The position numbers and the translations under genes were made by a program. A DNA stretch of 64,000 bases, taken from positions 1 through 64,000 of the IMG/VR virus record IMGVR_UViG_3300003323_000465; one strand, 5' to 3'. This document shows, one piece after another, positions 4,753 through 57,760 of this stretch. Below the pieces are notes generated by a model. That model did not search any database. It saw only the letters and a program-made list of their open reading frames with translations, and had not been told where the DNA came from. The stretch comes from a virus. Position 1 is the first letter of the stretch; each line of letters starts with the position of its first letter.

Positions 4753-7700
4753 ATGGTAGAAACTAAATCATTTACTAGCGGGGGCTTGAATACAGATGTG
4801 GAAGAAAGCCTTCTTTCGGCATCTGATTGGGTTGATGCTTTAAACATACGTATTGGTAGCCCTGATGCGCAAGTAGAGGCTGTAGTTTCTAATATTAGAG
4901 GCAATCAGCAAATAGGGACTAATTATGTGTATCCTGATGGTACTAATAGAATTATAGGGGCCTATTCTGATGAATTAAGAAGAAGGGTTTATTGTTTTCT
5001 ATGGAATAGTTTAAACCAGCATAGAATATTCTATATAGATATCACCACCGGGATTGCAACAGATATATTTAAAAATATCACATGGACAGGTGGTGTGAAT
5101 GTATTGAGATTTGATTCTACCAAGAAGATAAATGACATTGATATCATCAATAGGGATGAGGCTGAAGGTGATATAATGTTCTGGATAGATGGTAATGCTC
5201 CCCGTACAATAAATGTATTAAAAGGTCAGCTTACTGGACAGCCGGGGGGCTATCCAGCTACTGTAATAGAAGATTATATCTCTCTTGCTAAGGCAATCCC
5301 AGATATCCCATATAATGTTAATTACATAAATGTTGTAAGCAATAGTATTAATAACCTTCGCCGCAAACTTTTCCAATTCAGATATAGATGGGTTTATGAT
5401 GATTTAGAGAAATCTCCGTGGGGTGGTTGGTCTGATATATCATTGCCCAGAAATGGCCTTAACCCAGATACAGATAGTGATCCTACTAAGAATTGTGCTA
5501 TAACAATGCTGTTAATGACTGGTAGCCCGCAGGTTACTAAGATTGAAATATCAGTAAGGCAGAATGTAGGTAATGTGTGGCAAGATGCTTTGTTATTTGA
5601 AATACTGGATAAGGCAGAATTATTAATATCTGATAATTCTTTATACACATACACTTTTACCAATAATAATGCTGGAACTGTTTTGCCAGTAGCGGAGACA
5701 TCACTTCTTTATTCAACCGTTCCATTGATTGCTAATGCCCAGGAATTGGTAAATGGTAATACTCTTTTATATGGGGCTACTACTGAAGGATTCGATACGC
5801 CCGAAAAACAAAATGTTACTATAATTGCCACCAATTCAGTGTATTCTCCATTAAATAATGGTGATTCTGTAGCGGCGTGGAAATGGGGAGGAAGATATAA
5901 ATTAGGTATTGTATATTATGACGAACAAGGTCGTACTGATGGAGTACATACATATGCTGATAATACTAACAACGATTTTATAGTTAATATTCCTGATTAT
6001 AATGATGATGGAACTTTACCGCCTGCTACTAATTATCAGGTACAGTTAGCTTCTTTAAGTATTACTATTCGGAATCAACCTCCTTTATGGGCTAGTAAAT
6101 TTAGGATAGTAAGAAGCCAGTGCCTTACCTATGACAGGTTTTCTCAATACATTGGCCGAACCGACTATACAGATAATGAGTATTTTTATATTTCACTGGA
6201 TAATATAAACAAATCAATTACATCAAATGGACAGAATGCTATAACATATGACTTTATTCCAGGTGATAGGATAAAATTTGTACGTAGAATGGGCAATGCT
6301 CCTCTCCCCGGGTTTCCAGTATACCCAAATGTAGATGCAGAAATAATAGCCAAAGTTTTAAAACCTAATATAGGCGGCACTGATAGGGATGGTGTTTTTT
6401 TAAAGATAAAAATAAACGCAGCCATAATTGCAGCTCAAATAGTAGGTAATACGGATTATTTAATGGAATTTTATACCCCGGCTACTATTTCTAATAAAAT
6501 ACTATTTTACGAATTCGCTGCCACATGGGACGTATTGAACCCCCATACCGCCAATCGCGCTCACGCCGGTCTTACTAACCAAGATATTCCAACCAATACA
6601 CCTTGTAATATTGTGTATGGGCCTGCTTATGGGGATGTGTATGTGAAAAGATATACTAAGCAGACAACTGTGTCTAGCGGAGGCGCTGTTAATGATTATT
6701 TAAATGCGCCTGTTCAAGACATGAATTATAATGAGGCTTATGCAAGTGCTGTAAATGGTAATGGCCGTGGATTAACCGAAGATCCAACTTCTGGTCGTAG
6801 ATTCTATCCTAATCTTGTTAGATTTGGTGGTCAATATATTCAAGGAACTAATATCAATCAAACCAATATATTCTATCCTGAAAACTTTGATGAGTATGAT
6901 AGGAAATATGGAGAGATTAAAAGATTGAAAACCCGTGATAGGGAAGTGAGGGTTTATCAGGAATTAAAGGTTGGGAGGGTGCCAGTTTACCAACAGGTTA
7001 TAAAAGATGCTACTGGCTCTGATGTATTGGCTCAATCGGACAAGTTAATAAACAACATTCAATATTTCTCTGGGGAATATGGTATTGGTAATGCTCCAGA
7101 ATCATTGGCTTCTAATAATTTCGCAGATTATTTCTGTGATACCAATAGGGGGGTTGTGTGTCGTATTTCGCAAAATGGGCTTACCGCTATAAGCATTACA
7201 GAATTCAATAATAAATTCTATACCACTTATCTTCCCCGATACAATAAAACAAACGATCCAGGCTTTCTTCCTTCTCCCCTGCGACCAGATATTCAAGGAT
7301 ATGCTCCCATATTAGGAGTGTTTGACGCCCAGCATAATGAATATATAATTGCAATGAGTGAAGTAGCAAGGTATTCAACAGACGGGATAGGGATAACAAG
7401 AGAGGTTATTACCCCGGCTGTAACTCGTAGTTTTGACGAAAAAAAGAATAGGTTTATATCTCCAGTTAGCTACGAACCTGAATATATGACTAATATAGGG
7501 ATTAAATTAATAACCTTTAAAAACGGGCTGGCTTACACTCATGATAGTGATACATATTGCAATTTCTATGGGGTTCAATATGACGCCTATATTACAACTG
7601 TATTTAATAAGCAGCCAAACATTAAAAAGACCTTCTTGTCTTTAGACGAATATTCTGATGATACGTGGGTTTGTGATAGCATATCCACTTCTGAACATCA

Positions 7701-17154: not shown

Positions 17155-17511
17155 ATGCTTACTAATAACCAAAATAATGATTTTTTTGGTAATTTTACCC
17201 CTATCACATCCTTTCTACCTAATAGATTGGTGGTCACTAATGCCAATGGGTATGCTGTTAGTTCTGATATTTCTATTGAGAAATTAGAAACAATTGTTCA
17301 ATATGCCCCAACTATTTTTGTTTCTAATCCTATTGCTACTACGACTTTTACAAATGCTTATTTGAATAATATATATTCTATAAATGTATATCCTATTGGG
17401 TCTACATTTAAATATACTTCTCTTGTTGATATGCCAGATTCCACTGCATTAGTAACAAGGATAGGGGCTAATACATGGGATTTGAATTTAACTACAATAA
17501 AATTGACATGA
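17155..17511 (+). CDS. Short tail-fibre anchor protein
   Basis: Residues 1-48 closely match the N-termini of the two large spikes at 19940 and 22352 (shared core FTPITSFLPNR or FTPVTSFNPNR, then VTNxxGYAxxSD). Here that anchor is followed by only about 70 residues and no enzymatic domain. The stop overlaps the next start as ATGA (17508-17511), linking it to the repeat fibre. It likely docks to the same virion site as the spikes, perhaps as an adaptor for the next protein. The anchor assignment is by direct comparison. Confidence 0.65.
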   Translation: MLTNNQNNDFFGNFTPITSFLPNRLVVTNANGYAVSSDISIEKLETIVQYAPTIFVSNPIATTTFTNAYLNNIYSINVYPIGSTFKYTSLVDMPDSTALVTRIGANTWDLNLTTIKLT

Positions 17512-19202
17512 GATATTTGAAGTGTTTTTTTTTATTTTTAACATTATTGTTAGGATATAATTTATTTTCTCAGGTACTTTGGCAGCCGCAAGGAAGTTTT
17601 GAAATGCAAAATATCCGGGCATTAAACTCATCTGGAATACCAATTAAGGATACTATAAACTGGATAGGGTTTACTAATAGGGACAGTCTGGGGTGTATGG
17701 TTATTCGGCCAGCAGATGGTATTATTTATGTGAAAAAGAGAGGGTATTGGGCTGGATTGGCTTATACTTCTTTGGTCGCGACTAAGCTAAACTTATCAGA
17801 TACTGCTAATATGCTAAATCCTTACCTACGTAAAGGGGATACTGCATTTATGTTAAGCCCTTACTTGCGTAAACTTGATACAGCTTCTTTATCTAATAGA
17901 ATAGATCTGAAAGTTAATATATCTGATACCGCTTTAATGCTATCCAAATATCTACGGAAAAGTGATACTTCAACATTAAGTACAAGAATAGATGCTAGAG
18001 TAAAATATACAGATACTTCAGTCATGCTGAATCCATATCTGAGAAAAGGCGATACTGCAAATATGTTATCTCCCTATCTTCGTAAATCAGATACTTCTTC
18101 TCTTAATTCAAGGATAAATTTGAAATTAAATATATCGGATACATCATCCATGTTGAATGCTTATTTAAGGAAGGGTGATACAGCTGCCATGCTTTCTAAA
18201 TATTTGCGAAAAAGTGATACAATAACATTATCTAATAGAATAAATACAAAAGTCAACATATCTGATACGGCCAATATGTTAGCTGCTTACCTTAGAAAAG
18301 GAGACACGGCTTCAATGCTGTCTAAATACCTGCGTAAATCAGACACAACCAGTATGCTCGCTCCATATTTAAGGAGATCAGATACTACCTCCATGTTAGC
18401 CCCTTATTTAAGAAGGTCTGATACAACTGCTATGCTATCCCCTTATCTTAGGCGATCTGATACAACTTCAATGCTATCTAATTACACTAGGGCTGCTTCC
18501 AACGGGTTAACTCATAATGGGCATACAGATGTGTTAGGCGGTACGCTATTAAATAATACAAACATAGAGATGGCGGGATTTGGGTTAACACTTAATAGAG
18601 CTTCAGGTGTTACTGGAGCATTGAATGTTCTTCCGCTAACAGTCGATATGAGTACTACTATAAATAATTTAACCCTAAGCAGGATTCAGCTGTGGACAGA
18701 TGGTATATCTACAGGAGGTATAAAAATAGGGGATTTTTATGGCAAGGGAATGGTATATGAGACTGATTTATCTGCAGTTGGATTAACGGACCCCAGATGG
18801 ATACCAGATCTTGCCGGTGTCAAGAAAGTTGTAAGTGATACCGCATCAATAAAATTAAATAAAACAGATACTGCATCGCTCTCCAATAGGATTAATATTA
18901 AGAATATTAGGACAGTGACTGCGACTACATCAGTGGCTTTAACAGATTATACAATTATTGTAAATAATTCAGCCGCAGCCGTATTGACATTACCGACAGC
19001 TTCATCTGCATCGGGAAGATTATATTTCGTTAAAAAAATAAGTGGAGCTTCATTAAATGTTACAGTACAGGGATCTGGTGCAGAATTAATTGATAATGCC
19101 AATACAAAAGTTTTATCAGTTCAATATAGTGCTATTTTAATACAGAGTGATGGTACAAAATGGCATGTGCTTTCTTGTTATGCTACATCAATTGTTTTAT
19201 AA
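17508..19202 (+). CDS. Repeat tail fibre with N-terminal signal peptide
   Basis: From the ATG at 17508 the protein has 564 residues and begins with MRYLKCFFLFLTLLLGYNLF then SQ, a classic Sec signal peptide of Bacteroidota type. Residues about 99-324 contain some 13 copies of MLxxYLRKxDT, alternating with LSNRIxxKVNISDT units. These form a long regular rod. The C-terminal 80 residues resemble the end of the spike at 19940 (DYxIxxNN, LTLP, VKKIS). An in-frame upstream ATG at 17475 exists, but the ATGA overlap favours 17508. A signal peptide is odd on a virion part, so capture of a host surface protein or real export should be considered. Confidence 0.7.
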   Translation: MRYLKCFFLFLTLLLGYNLFSQVLWQPQGSFEMQNIRALNSSGIPIKDTINWIGFTNRDSLGCMVIRPADGIIYVKKRGYWAGLAYTSLVATKLNLSDTANMLNPYLRKGDTAFMLSPYLRKLDTASLSNRIDLKVNISDTALMLSKYLRKSDTSTLSTRIDARVKYTDTSVMLNPYLRKGDTANMLSPYLRKSDTSSLNSRINLKLNISDTSSMLNAYLRKGDTAAMLSKYLRKSDTITLSNRINTKVNISDTANMLAAYLRKGDTASMLSKYLRKSDTTSMLAPYLRRSDTTSMLAPYLRRSDTTAMLSPYLRRSDTTSMLSNYTRAASNGLTHNGHTDVLGGTLLNNTNIEMAGFGLTLNRASGVTGALNVLPLTVDMSTTINNLTLSRIQLWTDGISTGGIKIGDFYGKGMVYETDLSAVGLTDPRWIPDLAGVKKVVSDTASIKLNKTDTASLSNRINIKNIRTVTATTSVALTDYTIIVNNSAAAVLTLPTASSASGRLYFVKKISGASLNVTVQGSGAELIDNANTKVLSVQYSAILIQSDGTKWHVLSCYATSIVL

Positions 19203-29780: not shown

Positions 29781-30287
29781 TTAAACTGATTCCATCCATG
29801 CCTTAGGGATATTAAGTTTAGAAACATAAACATAATCGTAATTGCTATCCATAGTCATATCTACTGTAATCATTCCATCCTTAATCATCTTTTTAACCAA
29901 AACATTTATCATATGCTTTCTTCTGGCCACTCCATCATATCCTCTATTTTTCTTTTTATTAGAGAAGGTTTCAGATACAGTAAACACGCATTCGTTTTTC
30001 TTACGTTCACCTACAATTTCATTGATCTTTTCTCTATACTTATCATCAATCCGATAGGTCACAATATGCTCATTTATTAGCCGATGGACAGTTCTTCTAT
30101 CTCTATTTATAAAGGGAGCTACTTCCATATTGGATATCCCTAACTTATTTGTTAAAAGATATACATAGGCCATTCGAGCAGCAGTAATGACATATGCCCT
30201 TCCCTTTTTATTACTTATCTGCTCAGGAGTCACCCCAAAGGATTCACATACAGCTTTAAGTATTGCATTTCCTGATCTAAGCTCCAT
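29781..30287 (-). CDS. DnaA domain IV-like DNA-binding protein A
   Basis: Residues 25-75 resemble the C-terminal DNA-binding domain of DnaA: a Lys/Arg helix, AARMAYVYLLTNKLGIS, then NMEVAPFINRDRRTVHRLI, where DnaA has an LGxSxxEIGxxFxRDHTTV motif. There is no AAA+ ATPase part. The C-terminal 50 residues may form a winged helix. A neighbouring gene is a divergent paralogue. A phage initiator, helicase loader or mimic of host DnaA binding is likely; which one is unknown. Confidence 0.75.
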   Translation of the reverse strand: MELRSGNAILKAVCESFGVTPEQISNKKGRAYVITAARMAYVYLLTNKLGISNMEVAPFINRDRRTVHRLINEHIVTYRIDDKYREKINEIVGERKKNECVFTVSETFSNKKKNRGYDGVARRKHMINVLVKKMIKDGMITVDMTMDSNYDYVYVSKLNIPKAWMESV

Positions 30288-30768
30288 AATCCATTAATTT
30301 GACAGTGTGAGTATAATGCCCATTATTATCTGTATATCCTTCTACTTTAACAATGCCTTCATCAAGTAACATCTTCATAAAATCTTTAAGCATCAATTCT
30401 TCTTTTTTATTATTACTATACCCTGAATACTCCCTAAAACGTCTGGAATGCTCTTTTATTACTTTCCCCTGCGGTTCTTCTTTCCCATAATTACTCATAA
30501 ACTGAATATATCTTGAATTATACTTGATATATTCTTCATGCTTTTTTAACCGGTAAAAAGAACTACAACGTCCCCATTTCATTATTTCAGATATTTCACG
30601 AGGGGTATAATTGCCTATCTTGAAAAGATTATACGTTATTGCTGTCCTTAAAAATACCATGTTTTCTGTAGAACTATTATTGCTAAGGCATTTTGGTGTT
30701 GTATTAAAAGCCTTACATGTTTTCTCTACTATTTCTTCTGCCAACGTTTTTATTTCCTCTCGTGCCAT
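30277..30768 (-). CDS. DnaA domain IV-like DNA-binding protein B
   Basis: The 163-residue protein aligns end to end with its neighbour at 29781: both have a CxxFxxTP segment, a helix-turn-helix core (here YTPREISEIMKWGRCSSFYRL), Lys-rich linkers and a similar C-terminal (MLLDEGIVKVEG). The DnaA signature is more eroded. It overlaps the primase-helicase gene by 19 bases and its paralogue by 11, so all three are made together. Likely another origin-binding or loading factor. Confidence 0.65.
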   Translation of the reverse strand: MAREEIKTLAEEIVEKTCKAFNTTPKCLSNNSSTENMVFLRTAITYNLFKIGNYTPREISEIMKWGRCSSFYRLKKHEEYIKYNSRYIQFMSNYGKEEPQGKVIKEHSRRFREYSGYSNNKKEELMLKDFMKMLLDEGIVKVEGYTDNNGHYTHTVKLMDYGA

Positions 30769-32585
30769 AATGGATCTTCATTTGTTTCTGTCATGAGTAA
30801 TCTGTGTTTATCAAAGGCGGCTATGATATTTATTGTATTGCCGCTCCCTCGTTTATTAAAAAGCCGGATGTAAGACCTATCCGAAAGGTATTCTGTATTA
30901 TAAGAAGTGGACCTGTCTATATCTTCACACATGCTGAGATACACCATAAAATCCAAATTATCTGCTATCTTCTGGCTACCTCTTATATCCCCATATAAAT
31001 CCCTCTTTGTCTTATCTGCGGTCTTTACTACGTGAATGATCAGTAGGATAAAAAGGTCAAACTCATTGGCTAATTCCTTTAGATCTGCTGTATTCTTATT
31101 GGATGCTTCCACTTCGCCCTTATTGCCTTCTGCCATGAGGGATAACCCATCAACCAGTAAAATATCTATCTTTCCTGCCTTGTTGGAGTTTTCGATAATA
31201 GCGTTCCGATAATCATCAGTACTTAACCTGCTATTCTGGCTTATGAAAAGGCTGTTGCCGAGTCGTTTAGCTATATCCTTGTGCATTGCTACACGGGCTG
31301 TTTCTATATCCTTTTCGTAATAGTCTTTGATCACATCAGAGGCGTTATAGCCCGGAATATCCACTATCTGGTCTATCTCCCTTTCCAACCACTGATACCA
31401 GCTCATTTCTGCAGTATTCACCATCCCTATAGCCCCATGTTCTGAGATGTTGTGGTTTAGGATCTGTTGGGCTAGTAGTGACTTCTTGGTTCCTCCTAGT
31501 CCTATTATTCCCCCTACCTTCCCCCTTAATTTGCCCTTAAATTCTTTGTCGATAGAAGGTATCCCAAAGTACAATTTAGAGCGTTTATCCAGCACCATAG
31601 CCTCATATCCCGGTACTAATTCTGCTACTGTTTTCCATGCCTTTTCTTGTATTGGTTTGATCTTCCCACTTCGTTCTATCCTTCTCTCTGCGTTCTTGAC
31701 TATCTGCTTTAGCTCTTCATCGTCTAATGGATTAGGGCTACATTGATTTATAGACCGGATAATCTGTAGAACAGAATTTTTATGGAGTTGGCCATTTGTA
31801 AGGTCAAAAAGCATTGCACTCTGTCTAAAGAACTGAGAATTGCGCTCACCTTCTTGTGGAGGGCAAAAGAAATCCCCATCACTAAATAATTCCCCCCTAT
31901 GCACATCTGTAGGCTTCGGCTTATTAATGATGTTAGCCCAATGAATAGACAGGAGGTTATTACGAGTAATATTATATATAGGCTTAGGCCGCAAGAAATC
32001 AGTTCTTGGATTAAGAGCGAGTTCTTTAATTTCATAGATCGTGAGATTTTGAAGTTCATCAAAAGATAATTCTACTTTATAAAGACCAGATTTATCATTT
32101 TTAGAATTAGGAACACGAAAAATCCTTACTGCATCATAAATCTTCATGTCCAAATTATCCACATGTTCTGCTATCTCATATGCTAATTCCTTCATTTGCC
32201 AATATAGATCAGGGCTACCGGTAAAACCACCAAAGCACTTAGCGTCTATCATTAAATGGAATCCCTTGTTGCCACTGAAATAATAGGTAATATCATCAGG
32301 GCTAAGAGAGAATTCAGTATTAAGATAAGCTACTGCCTTTACTGCATTCTGCCTTGCTAATTCAAGATCCCCACAGTCTATATCTAAGGGAAATGCGTCT
32401 GCATATAAATCCCCTGGATAAAGAGCTATAGAGCCTCCATTAACCCGGATATATTCCATCACATTAGCATCGAAAGAAAAGAGAGAAGCATAACGTTCGT
32501 AATTGCAAGGAGCTGGATCGATATTCCCTACAGGGATAATTACATTCCTATTCTGTAGACTATGCTCTACTATTTCTTTATACAT
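30750..32585 (-). CDS. Primase-helicase: AEP-type primase, PriCT-like linker, RecA-fold helicase
   Basis: The 611-residue protein has an archaeo-eukaryotic-type primase domain: FPLDID (catalytic acids 68 and 70), SGNKGFH (104-110), and DAVRIFRVPNSKND (151-164). A helical linker near 250-305 resembles PriCT. The helicase part has Walker A GLGGTKKSLL (362-371) and Walker B ILLVDG (475-480). It would unwind DNA and lay primers at the phage fork. A 340-base structured leader precedes it. No DNA polymerase is seen in the window, so it probably works with a host polymerase or one encoded outside. Confidence 0.85.
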   Translation of the reverse strand: MYKEIVEHSLQNRNVIIPVGNIDPAPCNYERYASLFSFDANVMEYIRVNGGSIALYPGDLYADAFPLDIDCGDLELARQNAVKAVAYLNTEFSLSPDDITYYFSGNKGFHLMIDAKCFGGFTGSPDLYWQMKELAYEIAEHVDNLDMKIYDAVRIFRVPNSKNDKSGLYKVELSFDELQNLTIYEIKELALNPRTDFLRPKPIYNITRNNLLSIHWANIINKPKPTDVHRGELFSDGDFFCPPQEGERNSQFFRQSAMLFDLTNGQLHKNSVLQIIRSINQCSPNPLDDEELKQIVKNAERRIERSGKIKPIQEKAWKTVAELVPGYEAMVLDKRSKLYFGIPSIDKEFKGKLRGKVGGIIGLGGTKKSLLAQQILNHNISEHGAIGMVNTAEMSWYQWLEREIDQIVDIPGYNASDVIKDYYEKDIETARVAMHKDIAKRLGNSLFISQNSRLSTDDYRNAIIENSNKAGKIDILLVDGLSLMAEGNKGEVEASNKNTADLKELANEFDLFILLIIHVVKTADKTKRDLYGDIRGSQKIADNLDFMVYLSMCEDIDRSTSYNTEYLSDRSYIRLFNKRGSGNTINIIAAFDKHRLLMTETNEDPLWHERK

Positions 32586-50906: not shown

Positions 50907-51110
50907 ATGGGCTATTATGCTAATTACGTTTATAAACCTGATACCCCTACTCCATATACCCTATTTGCTGTTGAGTATCTAGAGGGTGAAGAAGAGTTTA
51001 GGTATGATATAATGACTTTAGAACACGGGATTATTACAGCTATTAAGATAGATAAAGCATTTTACGAACAACTTAAATCAGAATTAAATGCCAAAATTCA
51101 AGATCCTTAA
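50907..51110 (+). CDS. Small acidic protein
   Basis: The 67-residue protein is acidic and beta-rich with many Tyr. It overlaps the next gene by 23 bases. Confidence 0.5.
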   Translation: MGYYANYVYKPDTPTPYTLFAVEYLEGEEEFRYDIMTLEHGIITAIKIDKAFYEQLKSELNAKIQDP

Positions 51111-53630: not shown

Positions 53631-53800
53631 TGCTAATCTATAAGAAAGTAATTAAAGACACCAAAAGACTGGATTTACCATTAACCCTTACCTACGAACA
53701 ATTCCATAAGCTCCCGCAAGCAGATAAGAATTACTATGTATTGGTAGATGGGCATTTCTATACCACCCTCCCATCAAAGGGGATAAAGGTGAAAACTTAA
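53627..53800 (+). CDS. Small protein
   Basis: A 57-residue frame (or 56 from the second ATG) is basic and Tyr-rich. Its position after a four-base overlap supports it. Confidence 0.5.
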   Translation: MMLIYKKVIKDTKRLDLPLTLTYEQFHKLPQADKNYYVLVDGHFYTTLPSKGIKVKT

Positions 53801-53861
53801 TCGTACCTGATACGCTTACGCTCAGCGCACCCATTCAGGGCTTTTTCTACCCTCAGCATTA

Positions 53862-54201: not shown

Positions 54202-54225
54202 TATCCCTATTTCTAAATTAACAGG

Positions 54226-54254
54226 TCCCTGGCTACGGCTGGGGATTTTTTTTT
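54226..54254 (+). terminator. Rho-independent terminator with long T run
   Basis: TCCC (54226-54229) pairs with GGGA (54242-54245), followed by nine T residues. The stem is short but the tract is strong. Confidence 0.55.
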
Positions 54255-54259
54255 GAATG

Positions 54260-54830
54260 TCGCGCCGAAGGCAGCGAACAACTACGCTCAGATCCCACCA
54301 ACCCATATAATATTAGTTATTTGTTAATATTTAGTTAATTGGATTAGGGTTAAGTCTAAGCGTAAGCGAAAAAAAACTATCCAAGAAAACTGTATTTAGT
54401 ATCCCGTACTTTCAGCCCCCTAGCTATATTTAAATTTAAAGTAACCCATATAGCAGCTTTATAGGGTTAAAACGAAGTGAAAATTATTACTAGTAGGTTA
54501 TTAGTAAGGTTAAAACTGGCTATTCAGCTAAAATATATTACCCTCCTTCTAGCTGCTTTCTGGGATATTTTTTCACCCTTCGGGTTCAGTTTAACCCTTA
54601 AAATATACTAATATAGTAAGTGATTATAGGGTTAGAATTATAGCTGTATATAATAAGATAAGAAAGAAGCTAGATGGCACTTTTTCAGCACTTTTTTTCA
54701 TTGTAATTATATATATATCAATAAATTAGATCTAAAAATAAGCCATTTTCATCGTACCTGTGGGAGTATCAATCGTACCTGTGGGAGTATCAATCGTACC
54801 TGTGGGAGTACGATCTGTAATTAAATTTGG
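54260..54830. other. Candidate replication origin, gene-free AT-rich region
   Basis: No gene fits in this stretch. It has TAGGGTTA words at 54345, 54462 and 54627 and an inverted copy at 54591, an AT-rich zone with TATATATATA near 54708, small hairpins such as ACCCTTCGGGT near 54574, and three 21-base repeats at its right end. It lies directly before a RepL-like gene. This layout is that of an iteron plasmid origin. Confidence 0.6.
54751..54813 (+). repeat. Three tandem 21-bp iterons
   Basis: ATCGTACCTGTGGGAGT begins at 54751, 54772 and 54793, a period of exactly 21 bases or two helix turns, with TATCA as spacer. The third copy runs into GTACGA, an inverse of TCGTAC. A partial copy ATCGTACCTG lies at 53812. 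Confidence 0.9.
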
Positions 54831-54857
54831 TTATTAAATACATTTTACCTACCTTTG
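54826..54857 (+). promoter_or_regulatory. Host-type promoter of the initiator gene
   Basis: TTTG (54826-54829), 20 bases, TACCTTTG (54850-54857). The -33 box starts 13 bases after the iterons, so a protein bound to them could repress the gene. Confidence 0.75.
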
Positions 54858-54886
54858 TATCTATTGAAAATGAACATATCCCGCCG

Positions 54887-55678
54887 ATGAAAAGAAAACT
54901 TTTAGGAGAGAAATTTACTGTAGATCATGCAGAAGAAGTATTATCTAAGGATAATCCAGATTTTACAGGACAAGCCTTCAGAAAAAAGATAACAGAACCC
55001 CTATTTTACAAAAGGTATCTCACAGATCTTTGTATGCTCCATGGGCTATCCCCTATTGACCGGGTAGTGCTTGACTATATATGTTGTTGTATGGACAATC
55101 TGAATTCTGCCAGACTGGATAAAGATTTCTATGGTAAAGTAAAGAGAGAAACGGATATAGGAGAGCAAACCACTAAAAATAGCATTCATAAATTAAAGAA
55201 GGCTGGCATTTTATTTAATTCTGCAGATAATGCCAAATGCAAATATTATGTTAATCCTAATTACGCGGCTAAGGCTAACTTCCATGATTTATGCAAAATA
55301 GTCACTAGAATCGAATATTCTGATGATAAATCTACTGCTATTGTTACAGAATTTATTCCAAATTCCGGCAATGGTCGTCCTATGAGGATAGAAGAATACG
55401 AATGGACCAAATCAGGCATTGATACAAAATCATTCTATAGGATGATGGGCGCTAAGGATAATGAGGATAGGGAATATGTTTATTATGAACTAGAAGTATC
55501 AAAAGAAAAGGGTTCCGTGTTGGAAAGGATGTCTGCTGCTCTTGATAGAAAACCAGAAGAATATAATAAATTAAACAATAGATTAATTCAATTGAATACC
55601 CTAACAGGGATGATAAATAATAGAGATAGCATTGAGGATATTAAAAAATTATTTAGGCCCAGAGATCCTAACAATTAA
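54887..55678 (+). CDS. RepL-like replication initiator with winged helix
   Basis: I start at 54887 (MKRKLLGEKFTVD), because the longer frame from 54827 would cross the promoter. The 263-residue protein has a winged-helix region: LSPIDRVVLDYICC, then DIGEQTTKNSIHKLKKAGIL, then KYYVNPNYAAKA, a pattern seen in plasmid RepL and related initiators. With iterons and AT-rich DNA just upstream, an initiator that also controls its own promoter is likely. A plain regulator remains possible. Confidence 0.65.
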   Translation: MKRKLLGEKFTVDHAEEVLSKDNPDFTGQAFRKKITEPLFYKRYLTDLCMLHGLSPIDRVVLDYICCCMDNLNSARLDKDFYGKVKRETDIGEQTTKNSIHKLKKAGILFNSADNAKCKYYVNPNYAAKANFHDLCKIVTRIEYSDDKSTAIVTEFIPNSGNGRPMRIEEYEWTKSGIDTKSFYRMMGAKDNEDREYVYYELEVSKEKGSVLERMSAALDRKPEEYNKLNNRLIQLNTLTGMINNRDSIEDIKKLFRPRDPNN

Positions 55679-57544: not shown

Positions 57545-57760
57545 ATGTCTGAATTAACATTAGGAGAAAAAAGAGTACGCACTTCCTTCAATCCATCCGC
57601 CATCAGCATTGTGGATACTATCAAACAAAAGGTAGCAGAATTGATTAATATTTGTGAAAGTATTAAAACGCCTAACAATGTTCGTGAGGCATCTGTGGCT
57701 CAAACTGAATTTGAATCAGCTGCTCATTGGGCTGTAAAAGCAGCTACTTCGGGTTTGTAA
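57545..57760 (+). CDS. Acb2/Tad1-like anti-defence sponge
   Basis: The 71-residue protein is two helices with the pattern GEKRVRTSFNPS, VDTIKQKVAELINICE and AQTEFESAAHWAVKAAT. This matches my knowledge of the Acb2/Tad1 hairpin domain, whose members form hexamers that trap cyclic nucleotide signals of CBASS and Thoeris immunity. The length (about 70-90) and basic N-terminus also fit. The call rests on pattern recognition without a search. Ligand preference cannot be read. Confidence 0.68.
   Translation: MSELTLGEKRVRTSFNPSAISIVDTIKQKVAELINICESIKTPNNVREASVAQTEFESAAHWAVKAATSGL

Follow-up and report, generated by a model that had tools for sequence, protein, structure and literature searches.

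A divergent RepL-type gene preceded by tandem 21-bp repeats marks a probable replication origin in a putative Bacteroidota phage

The locus described here lies in the first 64,000 bases (bases 1-64000, referred to as the window) of the viral record IMGVR_UViG_3300003323_000465, a single contig which comprises 70,024 bp in total. No end repeats were found in the record; part of the genome may therefore be missing, or the ends may reflect an arbitrary cut. On the plus strand, a terminator-like hairpin (54223-54248) is followed by about 680 bp of intergenic DNA containing an AT-rich zone, tandem repeats and a promoter-like site, and then by an ORF of 263 codons (54887-55678, plus strand) that is predicted to encode a replication initiator of the RepL superfamily. 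The repeats, three tandem 21-bp units of ATCGTACCTGTGGGAGTATCA (54751-54813, plus strand), end 73 bp before the start of the ORF and are candidate iterons, belonging to a kind of array that is common to most of the RepL loci considered below. An iteron replicon is expected to carry, next to its rep gene, tandem repeats about 18-22 bp long, and this arrangement is found in the window.

The original prediction spoke of three exact repeats, which slightly overstates the case. Three tandem copies are indeed present and the first two (54751-54771 and 54772-54792) are identical, but the third (54793-54813) agrees in 19 of 21 positions, sharing the first 18 bases and ending in CGA; extended by one base, it reads ATCGTAC-N8-GTACGAT. 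Allowing up to three mismatches, 0.21 occurrences of a 16-base core of the repeat are expected per window and four were observed, three mismatch-free copies being those of the array. Among tandem repeats with a period of 15-30, the array at 54751-54813 is the strongest in the window, with a score of 39 as compared to 18 for the next scan window of the phage and a maximum of 12 when the local sequence was shuffled 100 times. In Tandem Repeats Finder its score of 120 ranks second in the window, the top score (121) belonging to a 39-bp repeat inside an ORF. Tandem repeats of 39 bp occur at 17799-17873 and 18354-18466 within ORF 17475-19202, a putative tail-region protein, and translate into protein repeats of 13 residues. 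A single ATCGTACCTG, the same as the start of the iteron unit, is situated at 53800-53809, 950 bp upstream of the array. A search for the exact repeat in all viral contigs returned four matches; these fall in unrelated sequence that is GC-rich or coding, and their number is approximately that expected by chance.

That the protein is of RepL type and contains a winged helix, as had been proposed, is borne out by homology and by a structural model. In tblastn searches against plasmids it matched 19 records with a best E value of 2e-5, reached by small plasmids of Klebsiella, E. coli and Aeromonas, and most of the matches fall on genes annotated as RepL or as hypothetical protein; one of them is a 2.2-kb E. 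coli plasmid on which RepL is the sole annotated gene. A profile built from 21 RepLs, with the window protein left out, was searched against every ORF in the six frames of the window, of the remainder of the record and of a portion of a related phage. It recognised the window protein with 68.5 bits (E 1.1e-20) as its only match in the phage, the runner-up having an E value of 0.18. A profile search against RepL families, suggested earlier as a check, is thus positive with the profile of 21 relatives but negative with Pfam's own RepL model, since a direct Pfam scan of the window protein did not hit RepL even at E values as high as 10. Sequence searches of Pfam, PHROGs and the PDB did not provide a name for the protein, and as a single query it had no match among viral contigs and phages. 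The cut-off of the Pfam family RepL (PF05732) is passed by the relatives from Klebsiella, Hymenobacter and Chryseobacterium, and judged from these sequence comparisons the window protein is a divergent member of the superfamily, outside the curated Pfam family and linked to it through those relatives, and is homologous to the RepL initiators of plasmids. Its identity to the relatives amounts to 20-28% and its branch in the tree is very long, so that its function may have drifted.

The RepL domain, a predicted winged helix, comprises residues 36-154 and is followed by a C-terminal extension, some 100 aa long, that is missing from most relatives. The fold model is weak overall (whole-model pLDDT 58.7), with a confident core at residues ~40-110 (block pLDDT ~67-91) that displays the H-H-E-H-H-E-E order of a winged helix, as characteristic for the RepL superfamily. 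In a library of viral structures the model had a single match below 0.001, a 132-aa protein (1.2e-6) that, going by its size, may be the RepL of a Vibrio phage. Among solved structures the best resemblances, all weak and none below 0.001, are to regulators of the Fur, CodY, SarX and MarR kind.

If the repeats are the binding sites of the initiator, its relatives should possess arrays of their own, different in sequence and alike in geometry. We therefore scanned the 300 bp upstream of repL in 21 RepL loci, obtained from plasmid and genome searches and chosen for diversity, for tandem arrays with a period of 15-30, using 100 shuffles per locus; the repeats of four loci (L015, L016, L008 and L009) had been inspected before this systematic scan. 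A tandem array was present in 19 of the 21 loci, with a period of 22 in all except one, where it is 21. These arrays end 65-152 bp before repL, a range that includes the 73-bp gap of the window, and in each case none of the 100 shuffles reached the score of the array. No array was seen in a Pseudomonas plasmid, whose available upstream sequence extends over 168 bp only, or in pRGI00569, which carries many scattered inverted TTACTCA half-sites. Among phage loci, phiSG1, HS5 (period 21) and Erwinia LS-2018a have an array and Vibrio 1.148.O a weak one of two copies. Of the further viral loci found afterwards, six of the seven with upstream sequence have an array, which in two of the six consists of two copies only. 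Several of the loci are near-duplicates (Sodalis and phiSG1; Erwinia, LS-2018a and L058; two from Priestia; L057 and paPv2; L056 and L017; L054 and L060), so that the comparison amounts to about 20 independent cases. The period of 21 is common to the array of the window and those of HS5, Campylobacter, L054 and L060. The Hymenobacter relative is encoded on a small plasmid-like contig that appears to be circular, given its end overlap of 149 bp, and the Chryseobacterium relative likewise on a small plasmid-like contig. Palindromy of the repeat unit was considered as a family trait and discarded, being clear in some units and missing in others. A viral contig of 122,779 bp (L059) represents another large phage with a RepL, which lies at 4986-5453 and has three 22-bp repeats. 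Arrays far above the shuffled controls together with the homology to RepL give good support, at the level of sequence, for assigning the window locus as a replicon composed of iterons and RepL and for reading its protein as an initiator.

Directly upstream of the repeats lies the AT-rich zone that had been noted before the RepL gene (54590-54740). Position 54590 is the start of the best 150-bp window, with 78% AT, a value equalled at 0.016% of window positions, and such a region adjoining the iterons is a usual component of an iteron replicon; here it is a candidate unwinding element, a role that is predicted. The promoter, said to start right after the repeats, is found as a predicted site TTG-N20-TACCTTTG (54827-54857, plus strand) that begins 13 bp past the last repeat and matches the Bacteroidota-type promoter consensus. 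The several AGGGTTA words of the original prediction do exist, four copies with one of them inverted lying between 54346 and 54634 (54346, 54463 and 54628 on the plus strand, 54592 on the minus strand), but they find no support among the relatives. When all 23 copies of the word are placed at random, four in 300 bp occur with p ~0.003 for a word that was picked post hoc, and copies are spread over 50.1 to 55.8 kb; with such weak clustering we do not consider them iterons. No DnaA box of the TTATCCACA type was found from the AT-rich zone to the RepL gene. To our knowledge, DnaA boxes are not universal among iteron origins, and their absence was therefore not used to exclude an iteron replicon. 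The minimum of the GC skew (50,961), 3.8 kb from the array, coincides with a switch between divergent gene blocks and, as it cannot be separated from this change in gene direction, was dismissed as evidence for an origin.

Elsewhere in the phage, the ORF at 30750-32585 (minus strand) encodes a fusion of an AEP primase with a DnaB-type helicase, in agreement with the primase-helicase reported earlier (Pfam DnaB_C 7.9e-12; PHROG primase 1.2e-23; DNA_primase_S 3.5e-4, under the cut-off). It is the likely partner to be loaded at the origin, and it belongs to a different transcription block than repL. Directly after it, two adjacent proteins (29781-30287 and 30277-30768, minus strand) contain a DnaA C-terminal DNA-binding domain, one of them above the cut-off, and one such match each occurs in three of four terminase-related phages tested; the pair might constitute a further system of origin recognition that is specific to the phage. 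Other genes code for an Erf annealing protein, an exonuclease VIII-like nuclease and a Holliday junction resolvase. The lack of a visible DNA polymerase and integrase was confirmed, in searches with positive controls, for polymerases of families A and B and for tyrosine integrase and serine recombinase domains. As no family A or B polymerase was found and the largest ORFs, where they had matches, had them to structural or tail families, replication of the phage very probably depends on the polymerase of its host. No ParA-type ATPase was detected in the phage, P1 serving as positive control, nor did the scanned genes include families of partition, repressor or toxin-antitoxin proteins, in a search that may have missed small or divergent members. 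Downstream of repL, at a distance of a few genes, a small protein (57545-57760, plus strand; match at 57590-57748) contains an Acb2/Tad1 hairpin domain (3.7e-12, above the cut-off) and is a candidate anti-CBASS/anti-Thoeris sponge. One small plus-strand protein within 50170-62840 matches YAcAr, a SLOG-family domain (1.3e-10).

Alongside the RepL gene the phage has virion genes, for a terminase, a portal, structural and tail proteins and an endolysin. Relatives of the terminase are found in Flavobacterium and Cellulophaga phages. In combination with promoters of the form TTG-N19/20-TAnnTTTG, these relatives lead us to infer a host among the Bacteroidota. Phages with related terminases have no detectable RepL, so that the unit does not seem to be a core feature of that lineage. 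A search for the primase-helicase in related phages gave no match and was of no help. In the related phage L032, with a terminase 49% identical, ORF 6316-6984 (222 aa) appeared RepL-like by eye and was rejected, its profile E value being 0.18 and no array preceding it. Two exact 21-bp repeats of AGTTGTCATCTTATGAAGACA (7555-7596) are located downstream of this winged-helix-like ORF.

In our judgement the locus is a RepL-type replicon that probably functions as the early replication origin of the phage during infection. The RepL-type protein would bind the 21-bp repeats through its winged helix, melt the adjoining AT-rich DNA (54590-54740) and recruit the AEP primase-DnaB helicase together with the host DNA polymerase III, leading to theta replication. 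Binding near its own promoter would at the same time allow the protein to limit its own synthesis. The phage might also be maintained as a plasmid prophage, without a sign of it from other genes.

It had been proposed that the phage replicates as a plasmid or uses a plasmid-style origin, and of this the RepL protein with its iteron origin is sustained by homology and conserved arrays, but the plasmid lifestyle is not, as no ParA, integrase, repressor or toxin-antitoxin was recognised. Measured against what defines a phage-plasmid, virion genes and a plasmid replication gene are present and a partition system was not found. Such an element might maintain its extrachromosomal genome through the RepL replicon and start lytic replication at another origin, for example near the skew minimum at ~51 kb with the DnaA-C proteins, in the manner of the two replicons of P1. 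RepL relatives do occur in extrachromosomal phage elements, i.e., pSG3/phiSG1, pArsFIN14 of Arsenophonus with its tail genes, and pETR003 of Erwinia with ParA and RecT; crAssphage has been proposed as a phage-plasmid and repL has been used to seek others (PMC11652158), and the two DnaA-C-domain proteins adjoin the primase-helicase in a phage whose skew minimum is at 50,961. The missing ParA-type ATPase, integrase and partition, repressor and toxin-antitoxin families speak against it, within the limits of the searches given above, and we consider this two-origin scheme rather unlikely. An initiator of lytic replication fits the data as well as a plasmid lifestyle does, since RepL genes stand beside primase or helicase genes in HS5 and Vibrio 1.148.O, which provides an equally good model for an origin of the lytic phase.

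Two further explanations would deny the locus an initiator function. The resemblance of the winged helix to Fur, CodY, SarX and MarR-kind structures, weak as it is, and the position of the repeats just upstream of the protein's own promoter could mean that the protein does no more than regulate transcription, with the repeats as its operators. The homology, however, is to RepL, including plasmids that have RepL as the sole annotated gene, and a regulator alone would leave unexplained why 21-22 bp arrays are conserved across autonomously replicating plasmids; this explanation appears improbable to us. Still more improbable is that the phage captured a plasmid replicon which has since lost its function. 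The very long branch, the low identity and the absence from phages with related terminases would suit a relic, but the 263-aa ORF is intact, the promoter-like site and AT-rich zone have been kept, and decay would have blurred an array whose repeats are near-perfect.

RepL is already known in phages (crAssphage, phiSG1, HS5), and the window adds a member that is new and divergent. That repL is preceded, across phyla, by an array of nearly constant 21-22 bp period is described in a piecemeal way in the papers found and may be under-appreciated. RepL genes serve to call phage-plasmids, yet their origins are poorly defined, and the regularity seen over plasmids and phages of several phyla, an array with a period of 21-22 bp about 60-150 bp before repL, offers a simple route to divergent repL origins in phages, including those of Bacteroidota from gut and environment. 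More speculatively, and with considerable doubt on our part, a Bacteroidota phage might combine an iteron/RepL replicon with a primase-helicase and DnaA-C proteins, persist extrachromosomally without integrase or ParA and possess a second origin, and more broadly the RepLs outside the classical Firmicute group might in general be iteron (theta-type) initiators with a conserved repeat period of 21-22 bp.

Among known systems, P1 (RepL/oriL and RepA/oriR) resembles the present case in having phage-borne initiators, and its oriR has iterons at 21-bp spacing. Its oriL is believed to be located within repL (PMC9948254). The P1 genome gave no match to the profile of 21 RepLs at E ≤ 1, and the window protein does not qualify as a RepL of the P1 type. 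For pMOS6 of Paracoccus, the RepL-family Rep alone was stated to be enough for a minimal replicon (data not shown there), and two 18-bp repeats 3 bp apart upstream result in a 21-bp period (PMC3832669); likened to the present locus by its description, it differs in being a plasmid with two repeats only. A 1.3-kb RepL plasmid of Campylobacter was described without iterons and is suspected of rolling-circle replication (PMC11389370). CrAssphage (Carjivirus communis) is a Bacteroidota phage with a RepL homologue and a proposed phage-plasmid (PMC11652158), and a RepL-domain protein of crAssphage is among the weak fold matches of the window protein, although in sequence a close match to the crAssphage RepL did not emerge. 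RepL plasmids, e.g., E. coli Col(MG828) pMB9698_7, Aeromonas 9716_6_41 and the small plasmid-like contigs of Hymenobacter and Chryseobacterium, possess a RepL-domain initiator with three to five tandem 22-bp repeats just upstream, whereas the present locus belongs to a 70-kb phage, has a period of 21, and its protein shows 20-28% identity, carries the C-terminal extension and is missed by Pfam RepL. Sodalis phiSG1/pSG3, Pseudoalteromonas HS5, Vibrio 1.148.O and Erwinia LS-2018a have 21- or 22-bp repeats before repL (weak in Vibrio) as in the present locus, and their hosts are gammaproteobacterial, unlike the one inferred here. In HS5 and Vibrio, whose RepLs group weakly with the window protein in the tree, repL lies near toprim or primase-helicase genes, whereas in the window it is transcribed in another block than the primase-helicase.
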